Virus record (IMG/VR): IMGVR_UViG_3300031222_000261
Span: 1-20,099 of that record
From: a virus
Reading direction: 5' to 3' (one strand)
DNA length: 20,099 nt
Shown here piece after piece: positions 659 through 19,457 of this stretch. The translations under genes were made by a program, and so were the position numbers. Each line of letters starts with the position of its first letter. The stretch's first letter is position 1. Below the pieces are notes generated by a model. It worked only from the letters and a program-made list of their open reading frames with translations, made no database searches and had not been told where the DNA came from.

Positions 659-2029
659 TTATTGTTTTAAAAAATACACATCTTCTTTTGCTCTTGTTAT
701 AGCTGTGTAGATTGTTTGAAGCTGTCTCTTACGACTTAAAGCTCTACATGATGTAACATCGTCAACATTTAAATATATGGTATTATATGTACTCCCTTGG
801 CTTTTGTAAGCGGTAGTAGCATATCCATAAGCCCAATTGCAAAAACTTTTTCTTAAATCCCAAAAAACTTTCCAGTTTCTGTTTTGTCTACATTTTTTAG
901 CAATCTCATCCAATGCTTCATCCAAAATTATTTGTCCGGATTCCGTAGGAATAATAAATCGCCCTTCTCTACCTACAATATCAGCTACATAAGTATCTAT
1001 CCTGTAGTTTTTGCCAAAAGCTTTATATCTAAACACCTTGCTAAATAACTTTTTAATTTTAAGTATTTCAGAATTAAAAAGTATGTAATTAACATAGCCA
1101 AATTCATCAAAAGAATAAAAACTATCTTTCATTGCTACTAAATCATTAGGAACAAGTATTTCTTCTGGATTGTTCATCAAATGATTTCTAATCAATGGAT
1201 TCAGCTTGTTAATTGCTTTGTTTGTAAACGCAATTACTCTGGCCTTTTCAATTTCTTTTTTAGATATGTGATCTAAAAAATCTGAGTATCTAACAACATT
1301 ATGTCCAATACCATCAATCATGCAAGGATCATTCATAGCTTGAAGCACTCTGTTGACTCTTTGCAAGCCAAATATCTCTTCTCTGATTATGTCAGATAAA
1401 TCTAATATTGGATTGTTCGAAGCTTGCCTTACTCTTTCTGTAAGCTCATGTTTACAATCGTCTAGCACATCATATCTGAAAATAGGAGAATCCGCATCGG
1501 CACCCATTTTATTTTGTGGGTCAATTGGCGGTAACTGTGCCCTATCACCAATAAATATTATTTTACTATACATTGATGTTTTTTCAAACACAATCTTTAG
1601 CATTTCTTCAGTGTACTGAGAAACCTCATCATGAATAAATACTGGAATAGTTTGCTCACCGATAATTGTTCCATGGTGGTGAGGATCATAAATAAACGTT
1701 CGTTTACCAGTTAAATCATCATGATTTTCTTTTAAACCATATGCTTTAGCAAAAGTAAATACGTTAGGAATGTGCTCACCCAGCACGTTTTTGGCTTGAT
1801 GAGCTAAGCATATCCCTGCTACGTTGATATTTTTATCAAAGCTATCCTCGTTTTTCTTGTCAGCTTCAATGTAATCTGACAATATCTTTTTAGTCATGTA
1901 GGTTTTACCTACACCAGGCTTTCCTGTTAATAAGAAAAATTTCTCTGGGCCATCTAAAAATGCTTGAAACTTTTCAAGTAAATCTTCTTGACCTTTAGTT
2001 AGTTGATTCATTGCTATATTTTTCTTCAT
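659..2029 (-). CDS. Dda-like SF1 DNA helicase (UvrD/RecD2-like fold)
   Basis: This is a 456-residue superfamily 1 helicase, close in length to T4 Dda (about 440 residues). Helicase motifs appear in order: Walker A GKPGVGKT (36-43), Walker B HDEVSQ (133-138), motif III GDRAQLPPI (161-169), motif V YATTAYKSQGST (403-414) and motif VI TAITRAK (442-448). The TAYKSQGST and TAITRA signatures are those of the SF1B group (Dda, RecD2, TraI), which moves 5'-3' on single-stranded DNA. In phages such enzymes strip proteins from DNA and help start replication or remodel forks. ATG at 2029 overlaps the 3' end of the next gene upstream by 35 bases; ATG at 2011 (residue 7) would still overlap. Its neighbours, an exonuclease downstream and SSB, HU-like and DnaB genes upstream, support a fork role. 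The Dda assignment rather than RecD2 rests on length and the phage setting. Confidence 0.9.
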   Translation of the reverse strand: MKKNIAMNQLTKGQEDLLEKFQAFLDGPEKFFLLTGKPGVGKTYMTKKILSDYIEADKKNEDSFDKNINVAGICLAHQAKNVLGEHIPNVFTFAKAYGLKENHDDLTGKRTFIYDPHHHGTIIGEQTIPVFIHDEVSQYTEEMLKIVFEKTSMYSKIIFIGDRAQLPPIDPQNKMGADADSPIFRYDVLDDCKHELTERVRQASNNPILDLSDIIREEIFGLQRVNRVLQAMNDPCMIDGIGHNVVRYSDFLDHISKKEIEKARVIAFTNKAINKLNPLIRNHLMNNPEEILVPNDLVAMKDSFYSFDEFGYVNYILFNSEILKIKKLFSKVFRYKAFGKNYRIDTYVADIVGREGRFIIPTESGQIILDEALDEIAKKCRQNRNWKVFWDLRKSFCNWAYGYATTAYKSQGSTYNTIYLNVDDVTSCRALSRKRQLQTIYTAITRAKEDVYFLKQ

Positions 2030-2186: not shown

Positions 2187-2531
2187 TTAAAATTGAAAAC
2201 CAAACTCAGCTAAATGTGAGCTTGACTTGTTAATAAAATCGTTTAACTCTTTTGAACTCCATCTTTCGCGTGGGGCTTCTGGCATAAATTGTTGCAGTAA
2301 AGTCTGCATTTCGCCAAAAGAATTACCAAAGTGATCAGCCGCTTTTAAAATGAAAACTTTATACAGTTTGTCCTGACTTTCATTTATATTTTTCTCAATA
2401 GGTTCTATCTGAAGCTTAAAGGTAATATTCGCGTCTTCATAGTATTTTAGAACTTTCTTGAGAAAGGCTTCTTTATTATACTCAGTCGGTGTGATTACAC
2501 CCGACTGAGTTTTACAAATAAATTGATGCAT
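2187..2531 (-). CDS. hypothetical protein, faint resemblance to NinB-like recombination proteins
   Basis: This 114-residue protein lies 3 bases downstream of the SSB-like gene. The N-terminal half has alternating strands and helices; the C-terminal half (from SQDKLYKVFILKAAD, about 52-66) reads as helices ending in WSSKELNDFINKSSSHLAE (91-109). The pattern of a helix, an acidic break, then a Ser-Ser-Lys-Glu-Leu helix before a short C-terminal strand recalls NinB-type and related phage recombination accessory proteins, which pair with SSB genes. That is only a pattern impression with no diagnostic residue. Placement directly after the SSB-like gene and before Dda supports a DNA-metabolism role. 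Otherwise it is unassigned. Confidence 0.6.
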   Translation of the reverse strand: MHQFICKTQSGVITPTEYNKEAFLKKVLKYYEDANITFKLQIEPIEKNINESQDKLYKVFILKAADHFGNSFGEMQTLLQQFMPEAPRERWSSKELNDFINKSSSHLAEFGFQF

Positions 2532-2534
2532 CTA

Positions 2535-3563
2535 CTATTCGTAGTGTGCGTGATTGTTCTTGATCATAAGCTCTTTAGTCCATCCTTTGTTTAACCATGC
2601 TTGTAAATCTGAACCGTTTTTAATTACAAACTTTTTCTCAGCAGGTTGTGAAGGTACTGATTCAGGCCCTGGTGCTGGTGCACTAGGTTGCTGTGGAGCA
2701 TTTCCTTCTTGTGGTTGTTGTGGTTGCGGAGATTTTGGCGCACTAGGTTGCGGACTAGGAGCCCCTGGCCCTGCCTGTGGCGATGGTGCTTGTACTGGCT
2801 CATCCCATTTTGCAACACCATTGTCAATAAGCATTTGATCTGTCCAATCCGCATCTTTATACTGCTTATAAGTATAATCTGCATTAGGCAACATGATAAT
2901 TTTCTTACCAGCATTCGAATTCTTTTTATAATCTGAAGGATCTGGCTCTAAAAATGAACCACCATTTCTAGCATGTGCTAAACCTTCTGCAGATTTTTTG
3001 ATTTTCTCTCTAACAAACTTTGGTAAGTTTTTAAAACTTTCAGATGTAAAGCCTTGGCTTAAATGAAAGAAAAATGACTCGTTTATTTGTGGCACTTTAC
3101 TTTCATTAAGACCAAACATTAATCTGTTCTTATCAGTCAATTGAGTAATAGAACTAATGTTTGCATACTTACCGTCTGGAGAATGAGAAATTGTAGCAAC
3201 ATAATGTTTGCCAATCAATTCATCAATTCTAAAATTCTTTGCTTCATCATCAGTAAGCTTATGGCCTTCCATGTTTTCAATGAAGTTTTTACGAAGATTA
3301 GACTTTGGAGCCATAGACAATGTTTCATCTGTAAAGATTGCACAAGGCTTCATTTCGTCTCCTTCATAAAACTGTCTTAGCTCTTGTGGAAATTCAAATG
3401 CAAGCTGACATTTATGTTTAGGTCCAAACTTTTGACTGTCTTGTGTTCCAAGATCTGCAAGACCATAAAATGTACATAATTGCATTCCTGTTGGAATTAA
3501 TTCAACATTCTCAATTCTAGTACTTCCACCTTCTACTGGTGCTGTAAACGCTACTCTTTCCAT
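2535..3563 (-). CDS. SSB-like single-stranded DNA-binding protein with Pro/Gln-rich linker
   Basis: The 342-residue product resembles the SSB-like proteins encoded beside HU/IHF-like and DnaB genes in crAss-like phages. Residues 25-145 are rich in beta-strands with aromatic positions (MQLCTFYGLADLG, KCQLAFEFP, GKHYVATISHSPDGKYANI), consistent with an OB-fold. A helical part (170-205) follows, then a low-complexity linker rich in Pro, Gln, Ser and Ala (257-309). A short motif occurs on both sides of the linker: WTDQMLIDNGVAKW (240-253) and WTKELMIKNNHAHY (328-341). The second is almost at the C-terminus, where bacterial SSBs carry an acidic partner-docking tip; here the tip is aromatic and mixed in charge. 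The family call rests on fold impression and neighbourhood, not on a sequence signature. Confidence 0.65.
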   Translation of the reverse strand: MERVAFTAPVEGGSTRIENVELIPTGMQLCTFYGLADLGTQDSQKFGPKHKCQLAFEFPQELRQFYEGDEMKPCAIFTDETLSMAPKSNLRKNFIENMEGHKLTDDEAKNFRIDELIGKHYVATISHSPDGKYANISSITQLTDKNRLMFGLNESKVPQINESFFFHLSQGFTSESFKNLPKFVREKIKKSAEGLAHARNGGSFLEPDPSDYKKNSNAGKKIIMLPNADYTYKQYKDADWTDQMLIDNGVAKWDEPVQAPSPQAGPGAPSPQPSAPKSPQPQQPQEGNAPQQPSAPAPGPESVPSQPAEKKFVIKNGSDLQAWLNKGWTKELMIKNNHAHYE

Positions 3564-3575
3564 TTTAATTAGGAT

Positions 3576-3860
3576 TTAAAATCTATTGCCCTTATCGACG
3601 ACTATCGAAAAGAACCCATAGATATTGATTTTTGTTCTTAGTTTTCGAGTAGTATTGATAATGTACATCACGTTAGTAAAATAACTAATCAGTACATCTC
3701 TCACAATACTCTCATCAATTTTGAGATTTAATGCAACTTGATTTACGTGCTTCTGAAAATCATTTGTTTCAAACACGTTTTTAGCTAAATAAGAATTTAT
3801 GTTTTCCTTTGAAATATTTTTCAAAGGTTCTCTAAATATATACTTTCTTTTAGCTTTCAT
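3576..3860 (-). CDS. divergent HU/IHF-like DNA-binding subunit, short of the beta-arm
   Basis: This 94-residue basic protein starts 1 base inside the stop of the canonical HU/IHF-like gene just upstream (TAATG), suggesting coupled translation and possibly a heterodimer. The core matches HU topology: helices around residues 17-60, then a strand-turn KINIYGFFSIVVDKG (77-91), equivalent to the HU element before the DNA-wrapping arm. The chain ends there, so the Pro-tipped beta-ribbon arm of HU and IHF is missing. A 21-residue N-terminal extension includes a basic stretch (MKAKRKY). In crAss-like phages two neighbouring IHF-like subunit genes are a recurrent feature. The assignment follows from position and fold pattern; the sequence alone is weak. 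Confidence 0.6.
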   Translation of the reverse strand: MKAKRKYIFREPLKNISKENINSYLAKNVFETNDFQKHVNQVALNLKIDESIVRDVLISYFTNVMYIINTTRKLRTKINIYGFFSIVVDKGNRF

Positions 3861-4147
3861 TAATAAACAGGTTTTGCCTTAATTTTATCTATAAATTTTT
3901 TAGGCAAAGTAACTTTAACCCTATACTTTTTAGGAATAACTATTTTCTCCTTAGTGTTTGGATTAATGCCATTTCTGGCTTTTGCAACTTCTAATTTAAA
4001 ATCAATAAAATCAGTTATTTTGACATTGACTCCAAATAACAATTTGCTTTTAATTGTATCGATCATTGTATCGATTACAATTTGAGTATCTTGTTTTGAT
4101 ACTCCAGAAACCTTAGCGACTTCTGAAACTAATTCTTTCTTAACCAT
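3860..4147 (-). CDS. HU/IHF-family DNA-bending protein
   Basis: The 95-residue product has the standard length and layout of bacterial HU/IHF. The N-terminal helices (KKELVSEVAKVSGVSKQDTQIVIDTMIDTI) match HU helices 1 and 2. The DFIDFKLEVAKARNGINPNT segment (46-65) matches the family signature including the Asn-Pro-x-Thr arm tip, and the return strand and last helix follow (KYRVKVTLPKKFIDKIK). Such proteins bind as dimers and bend DNA; in a phage replication block they may assist origin opening or DNA packing. The 45-base gap upstream, after dnaB, holds a candidate promoter, and the second HU-like gene overlaps its stop by 1 base. The family call is firm; whether it pairs with the neighbour is inference. 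Confidence 0.9.
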   Translation of the reverse strand: MVKKELVSEVAKVSGVSKQDTQIVIDTMIDTIKSKLLFGVNVKITDFIDFKLEVAKARNGINPNTKEKIVIPKKYRVKVTLPKKFIDKIKAKPVY

Positions 4148-4192: not shown

Positions 4193-5599
4193 TTAAAATT
4201 GAACTGAAGTTCCAGATTCTAAAACAAATTCTGCAAGATTCAAATAAACACCAAAATCTTTAGTACCAGTGCCTCGACCTTTAGCGACAATCCATTCTGC
4301 TACATATTCAGGATTAGGCTTGCCTGGAGGAGCCGGTACTGTGCTTTTATTTTCTTCATAATATGCTAATCTTAGAAGAAAAATTACTAAATCTGAATCT
4401 TGCTCAATAGAACTAGATTGCTTTAAATCTGAAAGCTGAGGTCTTTTACTAGGTCTATTATCTACACTTCTATCAATCTGTGACAAAGCTATAAATGGAA
4501 TACTCAAGCTGTTTTTTAAAGACTTAAGTGTTCTAGTAATCTGAACCATTTCGCCTGTCATATCAGATGTGCTTCCAGATATTTCAATTAGCTGAAGATA
4601 ATCTAACATAAATACTTCGTAACCTTCTGATTTAAGCTTTCTAGTTTCTGCAGTAATCTTGTTAAGATTTTTGATATCGTCTATAATCTTAATCCCATGC
4701 TCTTCTATTTTTTGACAAGCATCAGTAACATGATCAAGCTCTTCATCTGTAAGCTCACCCATGTTTATTTTGCTAAACGGTATGCCCGTCATCCTAGCAG
4801 CTAAACGATATTCAATATCAATCTTAGACATTTCCAAAGAATAGAAAACTACTTTTACCCCTTTGACAAATGCCATATGATATATAATTGCGATTATTGC
4901 TGAGGTTTTACCCATACCAGGTCTTGCACCGATAGTAACTAACCATCGCTTTTGAAAACCTCCACACCAATCATCAAACTCATCCATTCCCGTAGGATAA
5001 CCTACAGGAATTCCTTCTCGCTTCATTCGAACTCTTTCTTTGAGCTCTTCTTTAGCATCACTTTCTACAGGAGATAAATTTCTAATGCCCACATTTGACA
5101 TTTGAGCTATTTTATTGTCAATGCGGTCTAACAGGTTAAAAATATCAGGATCGTTATGCAGACTGTCTGATATTGTTTCCTGAGACATAGAAATTAGTTT
5201 TCTAAGTACATATTTCTGACACAATATTCTAATATGATATTCAATATGCAATCCAGTAGAAATATTTTGAGTCAATTCTATAAGAACGTATTCACCACCT
5301 ACATAAGAAAGTCTATTCATTCTTCTCAACTCTTCAGTAATACTCAACAAATCAATATCAGATGATTTGTTGTACAAATTCTGAATAGATTGAAAAATAA
5401 ACCTGTGAATTTCTGAATAGAAAATCTCAGGTTCTAATAGTTCTATCTTTTCGTGTGTGCTCTTATCTATTAATAAAGCTGCCAATACAGCTTTTTCTAA
5501 TTCAACTGCTTGTGGCGGTGCTTTATGTTGACTCTGTTTTTGAACCTTCGGTACGCTTGGTATGTCAGGAACCGATGGCATTCCAGATTCTTTTTTCAT
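4193..5599 (-). CDS. dnaB: replicative DNA helicase DnaB
   Basis: A 468-residue DnaB-family hexameric helicase of normal length. The N-terminal domain (about 27-165) carries the typical VELEKAVLAALL and ILCQKYVLRKLI helices. The RecA-like motor has Walker A GARPGMGKT (224-232), SLEMS (254-258), Walker B DYLQLIE (333-339), the ALSQIDR motif (371-377) and the SSSIEQDSD segment (395-403) with later arginines. It unwinds DNA 5'-3' at the fork and normally recruits primase. An extra Pro/Lys/Gln-rich leader of about 25 residues (PDIPSVPKVQKQSQHK) precedes the family domain and could be a docking tail. It lies 17 bases after the PcfJ-like gene and 45 bases before the HU/IHF-like gene. All catalytic motifs are intact, so the phage probably supplies its own replicative helicase. 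Confidence 0.96.
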   Translation of the reverse strand: MKKESGMPSVPDIPSVPKVQKQSQHKAPPQAVELEKAVLAALLIDKSTHEKIELLEPEIFYSEIHRFIFQSIQNLYNKSSDIDLLSITEELRRMNRLSYVGGEYVLIELTQNISTGLHIEYHIRILCQKYVLRKLISMSQETISDSLHNDPDIFNLLDRIDNKIAQMSNVGIRNLSPVESDAKEELKERVRMKREGIPVGYPTGMDEFDDWCGGFQKRWLVTIGARPGMGKTSAIIAIIYHMAFVKGVKVVFYSLEMSKIDIEYRLAARMTGIPFSKINMGELTDEELDHVTDACQKIEEHGIKIIDDIKNLNKITAETRKLKSEGYEVFMLDYLQLIEISGSTSDMTGEMVQITRTLKSLKNSLSIPFIALSQIDRSVDNRPSKRPQLSDLKQSSSIEQDSDLVIFLLRLAYYEENKSTVPAPPGKPNPEYVAEWIVAKGRGTGTKDFGVYLNLAEFVLESGTSVQF

Positions 5600-5616: not shown

Positions 5617-6924
5617 TTACGCAGTCACTTGTTGTTTACGTGATGTTTTTTTTGTGTTTTTACGTTTTGCTATTTTGGAAAGATTTTGAGTCATAATCTT
5701 TATGAATCGTTCGTCATGATCAGTTACTTGATTATTATAACCTCTAACTTGAATTACTTTTAATTGTTTTGGATCTACTTCAATAGTCGATATTTTGACA
5801 CCATTGATTTGAGCAGAAAAGAGTAAAGTATTTTTCTTGTAATATTCTCGCTGCCAAACACAATGCTTTAAAGCTTCCCCTTCTTCAAATACTTCTTTTA
5901 CAGTATTTAAAAAGCTGATTTCAACTTCATCTTTTTTAAAAGACAAACCTATATAAGGTTTATTCTTTTCCAAATAACTTGGTTCTCTGCTTTCAAGATC
6001 TGCAATTCTACGTTGCTTTTCTTTTTCTTTTTTAATTTTCTCAAGCTTTTTATAATATTTGTTATGCTCTTTTTTAATGTTGTCTACAAACAAATACTTT
6101 GGGCTTCTAAGATCTTTATCAAAAAACTCTAAATAGCCTAGATAATCTATCCAAAGACCAACATCTTTTAGTTTTAATTTATATTTATGCTTTAAAGCTA
6201 ACTTAATCGAAGACCAATACCTTATTGTCTCTGAAGTATAGTTTTTCATATAATTTAAAAGCTTGTATTCTTTAGCTTTCAATAATGTTTCAGCTTCTGA
6301 ATATTTTCTTACAAGCGAAATTGCGTGCAAAAAAGTAAGTCCTTTTAAATGTCTATTGATTCCAATTTTGGTATATTTTTTAAGGAATCTAGAATCTGGC
6401 AAATAATAACTTGGATATAAATTGTATTTGTAATGATTTCCATAATTTTTCCTTATAGACCAATCACCACTCCATCTTTCTCCAATCCAACCTACGCTAT
6501 GAATATTGCCAATCATCGTAATTTTATCTTTTGAATTTATCCAAAACTCAATTACTTTATTAGTGCTATACGTTGCTTTTTTGCCTTTTGCGTAATTAGC
6601 ACATGTATCTATGTATCTAATCACTTGATAACCTTTATAAGTCATTGCTACTGCGTTAAAAGTTGACTGATAGTCTGTACGGCATCTAGTTATTTCAACT
6701 TTTAACTTTGTATTACAACATGGGCAAACAGCTTTTTTTCTTTTTACTATTTTAGGAGAAAAAGTTTCACCACAATCCATACATATTACACGAGTCTTAG
6801 TTGCAAATCCTTTATGATTTAAAGAATTTTTATGAATCCAATCTTTTTGAGATTGTGTAACATCAAGCAATTCTTCAGACAAACGTGTAACTTCCTTTTC
6901 TAATTTAGTTCTAGCTATAGCCAT
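5617..6924 (-). CDS. pcfJ: PcfJ-like protein with N-terminal zinc ribbon
   Basis: This 435-residue protein carries the PcfJ-like signature near its C-terminus: EGEALKHCV (348-356), then NTLLFSAQINGVKISTIEV and IQVRGYNN (391-398), the Leu-x-His-Cys-Val and Gln-x-x-Gly-x-x-Asn pattern of that family. An N-terminal four-cysteine zinc-ribbon pattern (C48 and C51, then C67 and C70 in CPCC) suggests nucleic-acid binding. The middle (about 165-330) is basic and helical. PcfJ is named from the conjugative plasmid pCF10, but relatives are widespread in Bacteroidota phages and mobile elements; no biochemical role is established that I can cite. The PcfK-like gene ends 1 base before this start, and dnaB follows 17 bases after the stop, so a replication-linked role is likely. 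Confidence 0.82.
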   Translation of the reverse strand: MAIARTKLEKEVTRLSEELLDVTQSQKDWIHKNSLNHKGFATKTRVICMDCGETFSPKIVKRKKAVCPCCNTKLKVEITRCRTDYQSTFNAVAMTYKGYQVIRYIDTCANYAKGKKATYSTNKVIEFWINSKDKITMIGNIHSVGWIGERWSGDWSIRKNYGNHYKYNLYPSYYLPDSRFLKKYTKIGINRHLKGLTFLHAISLVRKYSEAETLLKAKEYKLLNYMKNYTSETIRYWSSIKLALKHKYKLKLKDVGLWIDYLGYLEFFDKDLRSPKYLFVDNIKKEHNKYYKKLEKIKKEKEKQRRIADLESREPSYLEKNKPYIGLSFKKDEVEISFLNTVKEVFEEGEALKHCVWQREYYKKNTLLFSAQINGVKISTIEVDPKQLKVIQVRGYNNQVTDHDERFIKIMTQNLSKIAKRKNTKKTSRKQQVTA

Positions 6925-6925
6925 A

Positions 6926-7339
6926 TTAAAATAAAGTTTCTTCTTGTTTCTTTTCTTCTTTTTTAAAATCAGTTTTTTCTGGTTTTTTCTCTAGTCGAGA
7001 AATTTCTTTAGCAATCATTTCATCTTTTGCTTGCTTTTTAATTTCTGCAACTTCTTCATCAGTAAGTTCCATATGATGATTAACTATAACTTGACCGTTT
7101 GTTAATTTATCACCTGGTTTCACATTTTCTTCATCGTAATAGTGCATGGCCATACCATATATTTCAGTATCTTCAAAACCATTCATACCACTTTTTTTCA
7201 CTTGATTGAGAATATATGTTACACAATCATCAATGTTCTTTTTGGGGTTTTTAAGTTTTTCCTCAAAAAGACTATTAAGTTGAGCAGCACGTTTTAAGTG
7301 CTGCTCAATTAATTTCTTGAAATTATCAGTTGCTTTCAT
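6926..7339 (-). CDS. pcfK: PcfK-like protein
   Basis: The 137-residue product shows the PcfK-like pattern: an N-terminal helical FKKLIEQHLKRAAQ segment (8-21), CVTYILNQVKKSG (39-51), then the EIYGMAMHYYDEENV segment (59-73), matching the family's conserved Glu-x-x-Gly-x-Ala-x-His-Tyr-Tyr-x-Glu core. A charged helix follows (ELTDEEVAEIKKQAKDEM). The tail is Lys/Glu-rich and ends QEETLF, loosely like a sliding-clamp-binding peptide. It abuts the gene upstream with no spacer and precedes the PcfJ-like gene by 1 base, so the two are likely co-translated partners, as in plasmids and integrative elements. Its role is unknown beyond this pairing. Confidence 0.82.
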   Translation of the reverse strand: MKATDNFKKLIEQHLKRAAQLNSLFEEKLKNPKKNIDDCVTYILNQVKKSGMNGFEDTEIYGMAMHYYDEENVKPGDKLTNGQVIVNHHMELTDEEVAEIKKQAKDEMIAKEISRLEKKPEKTDFKKEEKKQEETLF

Positions 7340-9819: not shown

Positions 9820-12411
9820 TTAAAAATCGATGTGTTCTATTTCATCAAAAAATTCCCCAATGTCTTTACAATGAGTCAAATCAATTTCACGACAATAGTC
9901 ATTTCCTGTGTTTACATGTTCGATGCGAATTATCTTACACATAACACCAGTGCCTGCACGATTAAAAGTAACAGCAGGCAAAAGCATTTCTCCAGTAAGC
10001 CTAAAATTAGCAAATTTTTTATGCTCCATAAGCTTGATTAAATTGTTAGACATTGAAGCTCCATTAGGAACAATAGCAAGTAACCTTGCTCCTTTCCTAG
10101 ATCTTTGCCTCATATGCAATAAAGCTTTTTGAATATGTTCAGCAGCTTGTCTGCTATTCTTTCCAAACGGTGGATTCATAGCTATAAAATCAAACTTGTT
10201 TACCAATGGCAATTCTTCAAATTCCATATTCTCGTGTCTGCCTACACAATTAATAGTCATTTGAGAAAACAACTCTAAGCTCGGCTCCACATATACATTA
10301 CTTGTAGTACCTGGGAACCATCTTCCGATTGCACCGTGGCCAACTGAAGGTTCTAAACCATCTTCGTCTGGTTGAGGATCTAGCCATTGAACCATTTTAT
10401 AACCTAATGGTTCAGGAGTAGCAAAATAATCTTTGCCTTCTGCCGATTTATTTTTGGCATTCTTTTTACCTCTAGAAAAATAATAGGTCTTTGTTTTATC
10501 AAAATCTGATATTTCTATTAAAGCTCTATCATTTTCTTTACCGCCTACACCTTGTTGAAGATTAGGCTTATCCATTGTAGCATTCACATAACCTTCTTTA
10601 AACGCTGTTTCTAAATCTCTAGCAAGGTTGCCCATTGCAAGATTCTCTGCAGTCTTAGCACGTTCAGCAATTTTAGTTGCAAATGCTATCTTTTCAAAGT
10701 TTGTATGTATCACAGGGTATTCAAACATCGCGTTACTCTTTAGTCCGCTTCTGTATATTCTACCTTCTGTCTGAATTGCTTCAGTAGGCGCTACTGGCAA
10801 TGAAAGATTAATTAATACTCTGGGCTTACCGTCTTGATTGTCATGCAAAGAGATGCCTTCTTTACCTGCTTTAGACTGTATAACAATTAAATCATATCCA
10901 GAATTATCATCGTTAAACAATTCTTTGTTCTTCTTCTTTTTCTTTTTGCTAATCGTTCCATTAAACTCTAGCATATCTGGAAACCGTTCTTTAATTGTTG
11001 CTCGGCAATTATTTAAACCTTCTAAAGAAAGATTAGCATATTCTGGATATTCACTGTACCACTCATTTATTTCTCTTTTTAATGGTTGAACATATCCTTT
11101 GTCGTCTTTTTTTGTCAGTTTATCTGCATCAAATCTAAATGGATGCTCTACAGTAGAATGATTATAACTATGAAACACAACTACTTTTCTCCCCAAGTCT
11201 AAATGCTGCTGGATTCTGTCAAGTATTTCCTTAGCTTTTATTGCTTCTAAAAGCTGATTGACATAAATGTAATTGTATTTCTTTTTGACGATTAATCGTT
11301 CCATGTATTTGTACTTTTCGTACACATACTTGTTGTACCACATCTCTATGCCGCTGTTGATAAAGTTTCCTAAATTAGAACTTACAAGCACAAATTCTCT
11401 TGAATAATCATGCTTAAGCTCTAATATTCTAGTTGACATTATGCCTTTCTCAACATGAGTTTCAAAAAAGTTTCGTTCTAACAAACTTTGATCTACACCA
11501 GTCTCTGGAATAGTACATTTGTTGTACCTCATCCTATATCCAAAATGTTCCGTTAGAAACTTATTAAAACCAGAAGCTTCATTATATCTTCCTGAAGGTT
11601 CTTCCTTTTCTATTGTTTCTTCAATATCAAATAAAGCACCATCAGCATACAATATTGATTTATGATAAGCAAATGGAGTAGCAGACAAAAACAATACTTT
11701 AGTTTTTACTACAGTATCATAAGTGAAAGTTTTCATCTGATTCTTCCAAGCATCAAATTGCCAATGATATAATTCATAATCATCTTTAGCTGGATTATAT
11801 ACAGGTCGATCTCCAATAATGTCATAAGCTTTCTCTTTTACTGCAGAAGGCAGGTTTGAAACTACTTTATGTTTTTGCAGATAAGACGTTGCTTGACCCT
11901 TAGAATTTTGATTTAAATAATGCGATTCATCATAAATAATTAAATCCCATACTACATTGTCTAAAGTCTCGTTCTGATGAAAGTTTGCATAAGTAGTTAC
12001 TCTTATATCAAATCCACTATCTTCAATACTTTGAAGCATATATAGATTTAAGTTAAGATGCTTAGCTTCTTCTATCCAATCGAGACATTTCGTTTCAGTA
12101 GGAGTAATGATCAATATGTTTCTGCAGCCTTTAGCACAGAATCTTTTAACAGTACCAAGACCAACAAATGTTTTGCCAGTACCAGTACCATTTGTACATA
12201 AATAACCTTTACCTACTCTGAAACGCTCTTCAATACGTAGAACATCTTCTTGTTGACTATCGTATAATTCAGAAAGCATTTCTTTGATGTTATCAAGATC
12301 TCCTTTTATGTAAGGAACATCGATAACGTTTTCTGTTTTTTTAGAGGTCATTTCCTCTTCGTGAAAATCAAACAAAAACTGCTCTTTTTTATTTGGAGCA
12401 ATATTAGACAT
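9820..12411 (-). CDS. SNF2-family helicase fused to adenine-specific DNA methyltransferase
   Basis: The 863 residues hold two enzymes. The N-terminal SF2/SNF2 motor has Walker A GTGTGKT (75-81), DESH (161-164), the LSATPF motif III, and a C-terminal RecA lobe with QSKAGKEGISLHDNQ, INLSLP and QTEGRIYRSG (motifs V and VI). The C-terminal domain is an S-adenosylmethionine-dependent methyltransferase: EPSVGHGAIG (687-696) is the AdoMet-binding motif I and NPPF (746-749) the catalytic motif of N6-adenine methylases, preceded by the YFATPEPL segment. Helicase-methylase fusions include phage P1 DarB and the Strawberry-notch-like group, linked to antirestriction or modification of incoming DNA. A Lys-rich run (KKKKKKNKE) lies between motor motifs. 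The DUF4313-like gene stop is directly adjacent upstream, and a terminator follows. Both active sites look intact; in vivo role is inferred. Confidence 0.9.
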   Translation of the reverse strand: MSNIAPNKKEQFLFDFHEEEMTSKKTENVIDVPYIKGDLDNIKEMLSELYDSQQEDVLRIEERFRVGKGYLCTNGTGTGKTFVGLGTVKRFCAKGCRNILIITPTETKCLDWIEEAKHLNLNLYMLQSIEDSGFDIRVTTYANFHQNETLDNVVWDLIIYDESHYLNQNSKGQATSYLQKHKVVSNLPSAVKEKAYDIIGDRPVYNPAKDDYELYHWQFDAWKNQMKTFTYDTVVKTKVLFLSATPFAYHKSILYADGALFDIEETIEKEEPSGRYNEASGFNKFLTEHFGYRMRYNKCTIPETGVDQSLLERNFFETHVEKGIMSTRILELKHDYSREFVLVSSNLGNFINSGIEMWYNKYVYEKYKYMERLIVKKKYNYIYVNQLLEAIKAKEILDRIQQHLDLGRKVVVFHSYNHSTVEHPFRFDADKLTKKDDKGYVQPLKREINEWYSEYPEYANLSLEGLNNCRATIKERFPDMLEFNGTISKKKKKKNKELFNDDNSGYDLIVIQSKAGKEGISLHDNQDGKPRVLINLSLPVAPTEAIQTEGRIYRSGLKSNAMFEYPVIHTNFEKIAFATKIAERAKTAENLAMGNLARDLETAFKEGYVNATMDKPNLQQGVGGKENDRALIEISDFDKTKTYYFSRGKKNAKNKSAEGKDYFATPEPLGYKMVQWLDPQPDEDGLEPSVGHGAIGRWFPGTTSNVYVEPSLELFSQMTINCVGRHENMEFEELPLVNKFDFIAMNPPFGKNSRQAAEHIQKALLHMRQRSRKGARLLAIVPNGASMSNNLIKLMEHKKFANFRLTGEMLLPAVTFNRAGTGVMCKIIRIEHVNTGNDYCREIDLTHCKDIGEFFDEIEHIDF

Positions 12412-15626: not shown

Positions 15627-16079
15627 CTAAACCAGGCCTTCATCTGCAAAGCTTAAATAAGAGTTTGGATCTGGAGCTAATATCAAATGATCAAGCAGTT
15701 TAATATCGTGATAACTCAAAGCTTTATTTAGCTTGTCAGTAATATTTTTGTCTGCTTGACTTGGCTTAAGCGTTCCGCTTGGATGATTGTGTGCAAGTAT
15801 TACAGATGTAGCTAGAGATTCTATTGCATATTTTAATACAACTCTAACGTCCACAACTGTAGATGTAATTCCTCCTTGACTAATTTTAACGTAGCCAATA
15901 GTATTGTTAGCGTTATTTAAGCACAGTAAATAAAAACTCTCATAAACGTCAATATCTTCGTAATAAAATTCACGAATATATTTATTTGCTTCAGAGCTTA
16001 ATGTAATCTTGACTTTCTTGATATCTGTTTTATTCTTCTTGATTGAATAATTTGGAATATTAGCTTTATAAGTTTTCAT
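15627..16079 (-). CDS. radC: RadC-like JAB/MPN-domain metalloprotein
   Basis: The 150-residue product is the JAB/MPN domain of RadC without the helix-hairpin-helix N-terminus of the full bacterial protein. The JAMM zinc motif is complete: E47 in VYESFYLL, then H97-N-H99-P-S-G and D110 in HNHPSGTLKPSQAD (97-110). The family-typical KLLDHLILAP tail follows. Short RadC-like proteins are common on Bacteroidota mobile elements and phages. The fold is that of zinc isopeptidases and related enzymes, but no substrate is established; an early DNA-repair assignment for RadC is doubtful. The ATG directly follows the stop of the membrane-protein gene upstream. Confidence 0.9.
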   Translation of the reverse strand: MKTYKANIPNYSIKKNKTDIKKVKITLSSEANKYIREFYYEDIDVYESFYLLCLNNANNTIGYVKISQGGITSTVVDVRVVLKYAIESLATSVILAHNHPSGTLKPSQADKNITDKLNKALSYHDIKLLDHLILAPDPNSYLSFADEGLV

Positions 16080-18830: not shown

Positions 18831-18973
18831 TGTAACAATTCTTGTTACATTCTGCTTTCAACTATGTAACAACTTTTGTTACACGAAAAGTGTTAAAATG
18901 TAACAACTTTTGTTACACATTTTTCAACTATGTAACAACTTTTGTTACACATTATGTAACAACTTTTGTTACA
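18831..18973. repeat. array of five 19-base palindromes (iteron-like)
   Basis: Five copies of TGTAACAA-n3-TTGTTACA lie at 18831-18849, 18865-18883, 18899-18917, 18931-18949 and 18955-18973. Arms are identical in all five; the centre is CTT in four and TTC in the first. Start-to-start distances are 34, 34, 32 and 24 bases, near three helical turns for the first three intervals, so dimers bound to those copies would lie on roughly similar faces of the DNA. The last copy ends 38 bases before the -7 box of the RepL-like gene. This is the pattern of binding sites for a dimeric DNA-binding protein: initiator iterons, autorepressor operators or both. Confidence 0.93.
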
Positions 18974-19061: not shown

Positions 19062-19457
19062 ATGATAGAGACGATAAAGAGACTTATTTCCAGAGACTAT
19101 AAGACTAGAGTACGAAAGTTCGAGCTACCTATGAGTAGCATTAAAGCTTTGCGTAAGCTTAGTCCTAAGTCTCATGACTTATTGATAGATATTATAGAGC
19201 AGGTAGGTGCTGGTTTAGAAGTAGAAAACCTCATCGTTACAGGTAACCACGAGGATTTCGGCTTCAAGCACAAACATGCATTCTATAGGTCTCGATCGGA
19301 GTTAGTCAAGGCTGGCTTCATAGTACACGATGGACAGGATCATTATGTTAATCCTGTTATGATCGGGTACAATACGAGAAGGCAGCTAGATTGCTTCTAT
19401 CGTTTATTTAAAATAAAGACAGAAACTCCCGTTAATATGGGTCAGTTTGACAGATAG
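19062..19457 (+). CDS. RepL-like winged-helix replication initiator/regulator
   Basis: This is the only clear plus-strand gene. The 131 residues form a helical N-terminal part (MIETIKRLISRDYKTRVRKF), a central helical segment (SHDLLIDIIEQVGAG) and a winged-helix-like C-terminal part: helix FYRSRSELVKAGFIV (74-88), then a turn and strand pair HYVNPVMIGY (94-103). The segment of a helix ending in Lys-x-Gly-Phe-Ile, followed by a strand reading Tyr-x-(Val/Ile)-Asn-Pro, is characteristic of RepL-type initiators of small plasmids, and RepL-like proteins are also reported in crAss-like phages. It sits directly downstream of the five palindromes, the arrangement expected for an initiator and its iterons. 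A regulator with the same fold is an alternative. It ends in TAG. Confidence 0.75.
   Translation: MIETIKRLISRDYKTRVRKFELPMSSIKALRKLSPKSHDLLIDIIEQVGAGLEVENLIVTGNHEDFGFKHKHAFYRSRSELVKAGFIVHDGQDHYVNPVMIGYNTRRQLDCFYRLFKIKTETPVNMGQFDR

Follow-up and report, generated by a model that had tools for sequence, protein, structure and literature searches.

Overlapping phage genes for an HU-family protein and a very probably HU-like protein without an arm, within a replication operon

The HU dimer forms via its helical body, and its arms bind DNA. The dimer body and the DNA-binding arms are likewise the subject of a figure legend in PMC5683647. The locus at 3576-4147 (minus strand) in a viral record of 20,099 bases (hereafter the window, i.e., the whole stretch of DNA that was analysed) raises the question of whether a phage may combine an armed HU subunit with a second subunit lacking the arm, and what such a pair could contribute to the phage.

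The operon and its armed HU-family protein

Gene A (3860-4147, minus strand) encodes an HU-family protein of 95 aa with a full arm (approximately residues 53-74, NPNT tip, Pro63), followed by gene B (3576-3860, minus strand), whose product of 94 aa appears as an armless HU-like protein in the predicted model and via a profile link to crAss001 gp14 and HU. The one-base overlap originally claimed for the two genes was borne out, with the stop codon of A and the start codon of B having base 3860 on the minus strand in common (TAATG). Directly upstream of A lies the gene of a DnaB-type replicative helicase (4193-5599, minus strand; PF03796, E 4.3e-62). A 12-nt spacer (3564-3575, minus strand), which is too short for an arm, separates B from two conserved neighbours, gene C (2535-3563, minus strand, 342 aa) and gene D (2187-2531, minus strand, 114 aa), and a Dda-like SF1 helicase is encoded at 659-2029 (minus strand; phrog_325, E 1.6e-65). 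No consistent Shine-Dalgarno sequence was seen by eye upstream of A, B or C.

Searches against Pfam and PHROG revealed no convincing known domain in C, nor did it match HU. Resemblance to a Gp2.5-like ssDNA-binding protein is hinted at only weakly; in PHROG, C matches phrog_7011 at E 0.011 and a family of unknown function at equal E. The protein is 42-59% identical between lineages, and near its end, visual inspection reveals a stretch rich in proline together with two tryptophan-containing stretches that resemble each other. Gene D, for which no convincing Pfam family was found, is present in eight of ten related contigs, the other two of which stop short of it.

Several further genes of the window were noted on the side. 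These comprise a 5'-3' exonuclease cut by the window edge (2-652; PF02739, E 1.8e-9), a RadC-like JAB domain protein (15627-16079; PF04002, E 2.7e-37) and an 863-aa protein combining helicase and adenine-methylase-like parts (9820-12411), which shows 37-39% identity over 96-97% to DarB-like antirestriction proteins of the phages Parlo and Skulduggery. Beside the DnaB gene of the phage, a PcfJ-like (PF14284) and a PcfK-like (PF14058) gene adjoin each other (5617-7339); both names are familiar from conjugative elements.

Regarding the phage group itself, which has a GC content of 30-35%, four of the best 12 DnaB matches listed come from Cellulophaga and Riemerella phages and the others from other or unnamed sources. 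For the TerL of a relative (L057), crNNN_1 (crAss-type) phages account for 13 of the best 15 matches listed (72 records matched), at 24-26% identity. The crAss001 TerL gave no match to the window, and the crAss001 capsid protein was not found in five records in a search run without a positive control. A distant relation of the group to Crassvirales seems likely.

Protein A belongs to the HU family, matching PF00216 with 69.7 bits (curated cut-off 22.4; E 2.6e-19) over residues 1-89 of 95. Matches above this cut-off occur in 5/5 records searched, and a profile of five orthologues finds HU sequences of the PDB with a best E of 3.1e-17. Consistently, the arm strands are present in the predicted model (pLDDT 84, VIA Z up to 11.0), and all five lineage representatives carry an NPNT or NPQT arm tip with the intercalating Pro63. 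Gly46, Phe47, Gly48 and Phe79 (Thermotoga HU numbering) are typical core residues of HU, which the family model does not demand. Among one representative for each of the five lineages, they are kept in 1/5, 3/5, 0/5 and 0/5 cases, respectively, with I/I/V/L/V at the position of Gly48 and V/V/A/L/V at that of Phe79. The original description of A as "canonical" consequently holds for the full-length family match and the arm with its NPxT tip, but not for Gly48 and Phe79. The altered core positions would fit a changed partner, a point which is weakened by Streptomyces phage JackieB, whose HU-like protein (L055) by eye shows similar changes at both positions.

Conservation of the armless gene B

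IMG/VR searches with B yielded nine and later ten contigs, and a repeat search returned the same ten. These contigs and the window fall into five lineages (represented by the window, L004, L012, L005 and L007), the B protein being 100% identical to that of the window in L001-L003, 74% in L004, 61% in L012, 56% in L005 and 41-42% in L006-L009. The order A-B-C is kept in all ten contigs, with C directly after B (truncated in L001 and L003, where the contig stops within it), and DnaB lies upstream of A in nine of them (partial in L002 and L005), while L006 starts 11 bases before A. Following the above order of representatives, the spacing is -1, -1, +1, -4 and -1 between A and B, and 12, 12, 12, 10 and 12 nt between B and C.

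In none of the ten related contigs does B carry an arm, which answers in the affirmative whether the missing arm is conserved in orthologues. The claim that B ends where the arm should begin was confirmed as well, as 12 residues follow the INIYG strand in all five lineage representatives, compared to 44 in Thermotoga HU. Both the absence of the arm and the gene order A-B-C are thus conserved. A truncation or sequencing error was ruled out by the identical end point in the five lineages, and an arm encoded by the downstream gene was ruled out because C begins 10-12 nt past B in all 11 copies (window and ten contigs) and has no HU match. B and C share one frame in four of the five lineages (gap of 12 nt); a read-through fusion is nevertheless unsupported, since the stop of B is TAA in 11/11 copies and the gap measures 10 in L005.

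Between the window and L004, the single pair compared, pN was 0.158 for A as well as for B and pS was 0.680 (A) and 0.773 (B), with synonymous sites near or past saturation. As pN lies well below pS, both genes appear to be kept by selection. In each of five records, which are possibly fragments, a single PF00216 match and a single B match were found side by side, and no second HU or second B elsewhere. That related phages keep this arrangement indicates that the armless B appears to be real and is probably a paired component.

Searches of phage records with B by tblastn gave no match at E 0.1, and the B of L007 had matches at E 8 only; relatives of B or C were not confirmed in genome contigs. 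Twelve loci were found with A, nine of them being contigs of this phage group and three (L015, L019 and L020, from other phages or contigs) HUs elsewhere, beside which no B-like gene was seen by eye. Gene C found matches in six phage records, and the stretches examined in three of them contained no HU annotation.

Probable HU ancestry of B and its link to crAss001 gp14

Sequence searches alone do not reveal what B is. When five orthologues were compared to Pfam, PF00216 was not among the families at E <= 5, although the HMMER filters may lose weak matches, and PDB chain sequences gave no match at E <= 10. PHROG matches were weak, with phrog_34966 in 1/5 orthologues (E 0.00081), phrog_26968 in 3/5 (best E 0.042) and four further families in 1/5 each, none of them with an assigned function. 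B is basic in four lineages (net charge +9, +8, +8 and +11) and close to neutral in L007 (+2).

An AlphaFold model based on the five orthologues (mean pLDDT 71, 50-58 in the hairpin blocks; pTM 0.55) predicts helices at 18-30, 33-46 and 50-71 and strands at 76-80 and 84-88. This suggests an N-terminal extension (1-32), followed by HU helices 1-2 (33-71), a hairpin (76-88) and the stop. Foldseek found nothing at E <= 0.001 for this model in the PDB or among viral models, and HU was absent among the best 50 PDB matches listed. Upon re-comparison of 351 Foldseek-ranked chains with VIA-align, HU/IHF-family chains, including viral HU pA104R, occupied ranks 1-19 of the best 50 listed (Z 4.0-3.2, 40-57 residues aligned), with B from residue 32/33 onward placed on the start of HU. 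The first hairpin is included in 12 of these 19 rows and the helices only in seven. With the first unrelated row also at Z 3.2, the margin of this fold match is thin.

Further evidence came from profile comparison via crAss001 gp14 (L031, 7152-7436), a protein of 94 residues which is labelled "protein HU" in MH675552, as are its counterparts in related phages, and has no DNA-binding arm. In hhalign, B scored 37.7 against a six-member gp14 family alignment (probability 89%, 49 columns, 29% identity; maximum of 150 column shuffles 17.6). The gp14 family in turn scored 37.8 against 16 HUs (shuffle maximum 18.0, n=150), 35.5 against 11 HUs of other groups (maximum 16.7) and 29.1 against A alone (maximum 24.8). 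Direct comparisons of B were marginal, with 18.4 against the 16 HUs (maximum 18.3), 15.0 against the 11 HUs (6/150 shuffles at or above) and 16.3 against A (2/150). The link between B and gp14 remained without L007 (32.5; maximum of 80 shuffles 17.7) and without L045/L046 (33.4; maximum of 80 shuffles 16.9), and a merged profile of five B and five of the six gp14 sequences scored 32.9 against the 11 HUs (maximum of 78 scored shuffles 16.2). As negative controls, D scored 16.3 against gp14 (3/40 shuffles at or above) and 11.6 against the 16 HUs (6/40), and C scored 17.4 against gp14 (1/40). The alignments place B 37-88 on HU in register, beginning at helix 1 and continuing through the first hairpin. 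The claimed HU-likeness of B is therefore supported by fold and profile comparison, though the Pfam and PDB sequence searches miss it; HU ancestry is supported, and B is very probably a divergent HU body without an arm.

To place B among related phage proteins, 141 gp14 relatives were found in IMG/VR and 80 loci fetched. An ORF matching the gp14 profile was present in 74 of the 80, with NPxT in none of these 74 and the hairpin motif in 66, where it is followed by 14-38 residues (23-38 in 61/66). No full HU was found beside gp14 in the 80 loci, with flanks of up to 2.5 kb per side, and an HU profile (E <= 0.01) matched only gp14 ORFs, in 11 loci. Similarly, PF00216 was above cut-off in 0/17 gp14 records (83-125 kb, possibly fragments), two weak matches lying at the gp14 positions. 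Among the gp14-bearing records, crAss001, DAC15, cr111_1, cr108_1 and cr85_1 are assigned to Crassvirales and Dulem virus 41 to Caudoviricetes only. The gp14 family hence resembles B as an armless HU-like body of similar length. Unlike B, which ends at the hairpin, it has a C-terminal tail past it and a longer loop ahead of the first strand; it also lacks the N-terminal extension, which in B comprises 30-35 residues and includes invariant positions, and no full HU is found adjacent.

Possible roles of the A-B pair

Compared to HU (PF00216; e.g., Thermotoga maritima HU, 1b8z, and Anabaena HU, 1p71), A is alike over its whole length up to the NPxT arm tip and differs in the replaced Gly48 and Phe79, whereas B shares helices 1-2 and, in the 12 alignments mentioned above, the first hairpin, but misses the arm and the last helix and carries the N-terminal extension. 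The IHF alpha/beta heterodimer offers a parallel in having two distinct HU-type subunits in one system, the genes of A and B being moreover adjacent. Both IHF subunits carry arms, however, and IHF is a sequence-specific heterodimer, whereas the pairing of A and B is putative. Two IHF-type genes per phage, IHF_53 and IHF_54, are also described for crAss-like phages in PMC7886860, where they are termed IHF subunits; there, IHF is thought to aid DNA compaction in virion assembly and is assigned to the structural block, unlike A and B, which lie in a replication block. The HU/IHF-like labelled gp42 of crAss001 (phrog_12177) was found in crAss001 and in none of three large relatives of the window. 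The original view that the pair is unlike HU and IHF is correct in that it differs from both, but armless HU-like proteins are already known in crAss-like phages, occurring alone as far as seen. The novelty is the coupling of an armed and an armless gene within a replication operon.

What does B do, then? We consider it about evenly balanced whether A and B are coupled subunits of a one-armed, replication-linked heterodimer, which is the best overall explanation we can offer. In this scenario, one translationally coupled message from the operon DnaB-A-B-C-D would supply both subunits of a phage HU-like protein. In B, the two helices that form the dimer would be kept along with the first hairpin, the arm and the final helix having been lost, and the A-B dimer would clamp and kink DNA with its one arm on one side only. 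The N-terminal extension of B would be left free for a partner at the replication fork, e.g., the helicase or protein C. The coupling to A together with the occurrence of one of each gene per record examined suggests such a dimer, for which we see an even chance. Given the architecture of the HU dimer and the conserved gene coupling, a heterodimer with an asymmetric bend is plausible; the one-sided bend, the role at replication and the partner for the extension are what we infer from this arrangement. The operon position may also reflect timing alone. A stricter version, in which the heterodimer is dedicated to a polar, one-sided bend and presents the extension of B to the replisome, is put forward more tentatively, at clearly less than even probability.

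The main competing explanation is that B works without A, either as its own dimer or as a small adaptor on a replication or transcription protein, with A forming an ordinary HU homodimer and the gene coupling setting dose and timing only; crAss001 gp14 would presumably be similar. We regard this as possible but rather unlikely. It draws on the gp14 loci, where the HU profile matches gp14 ORFs only and no phage HU exceeds the cut-off in the 17 larger records, so that pairing with a phage HU is not a requirement for an armless body, as well as on the extension of B with its invariant positions, which gp14 lacks. Against it stand the adjacency of A and B in every copy seen, each being single in five records, and the core changes of A, which would fit a changed partner with the above reservation concerning the Streptomyces phage. 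The same gp14 records without a phage HU over the cut-off could speak for B acting as a dominant negative towards host HU, i.e., pairing with it so that the resulting one-armed dimers loosen the nucleoid of the host, with A taking over the phage DNA, and an armless, dimer-forming body is plausible in that role. Considering that B sits in a replication operon, coupled to the A of the phage itself, and has no discernible sequence similarity to cellular HUs, such a function is improbable.

Two explanations would deprive B of its role as an HU-type subunit altogether. B might be unrelated to HU and its helix-helix-hairpin arrangement a coincidence, as could be read from the missing Pfam and PDB sequence matches, the lack of a significant Foldseek match and the low VIA Z; yet the controlled bridge via gp14, the register of B 37-88 with HU and the VIA-align ranks 1-19 render this quite improbable. 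Decay or truncation of an HU, through a sequencing error, a frameshift or pseudogene formation, would agree with B being shorter than a full HU, but the end point 12 residues after INIYG in five lineages, the low pN relative to pS and the 10-12-nt spacer to C in 11/11 copies leave hardly any probability for it.

The original proposal that the pair could mark a specific site such as the origin found no support. Some 14.7 kb from A and B lies the window's clearest repeat array, which consists of five exact palindromes TGTAACnnnnnnnGTTACA at 18831-18973, 24-34 nt apart from start to start, in the 590 nt that separate the minus-strand operon from a plus-strand ORF at 19062. With up to two mismatches, the pattern TGTAACnnnnnnnGTTACA occurs six times versus 1.2 expected (0/100 shuffles reach six), which makes the array a candidate operator or iteron array. 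The pattern was not found at one mismatch in four related records, all possibly fragments. Another scan, using one ad hoc short motif, remained at chance level (30 found, 24 expected), and there were no tRNA or Rfam matches.

A literature search for an armless HU partner returned nothing, a weak absence, as subscription journals were mostly outside the search. To our knowledge, a bender of the HU/IHF type that is one-armed by design would, if true, be the first of its kind. In the current understanding, HU and IHF clamp DNA with two arms. A conserved, coupled armless partner would represent a natural test of what a single arm does to DNA, and of how phages lend an architectural protein a direction or tether other proteins to it. 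The label "protein HU" of crAss001 gp14 also deserves attention, as it covers a protein without a DNA-binding arm, and, if the one-armed A-B heterodimer is real, the gp14-type armless proteins of crAss-like phages might constitute a wider class of HU dimer modifiers.
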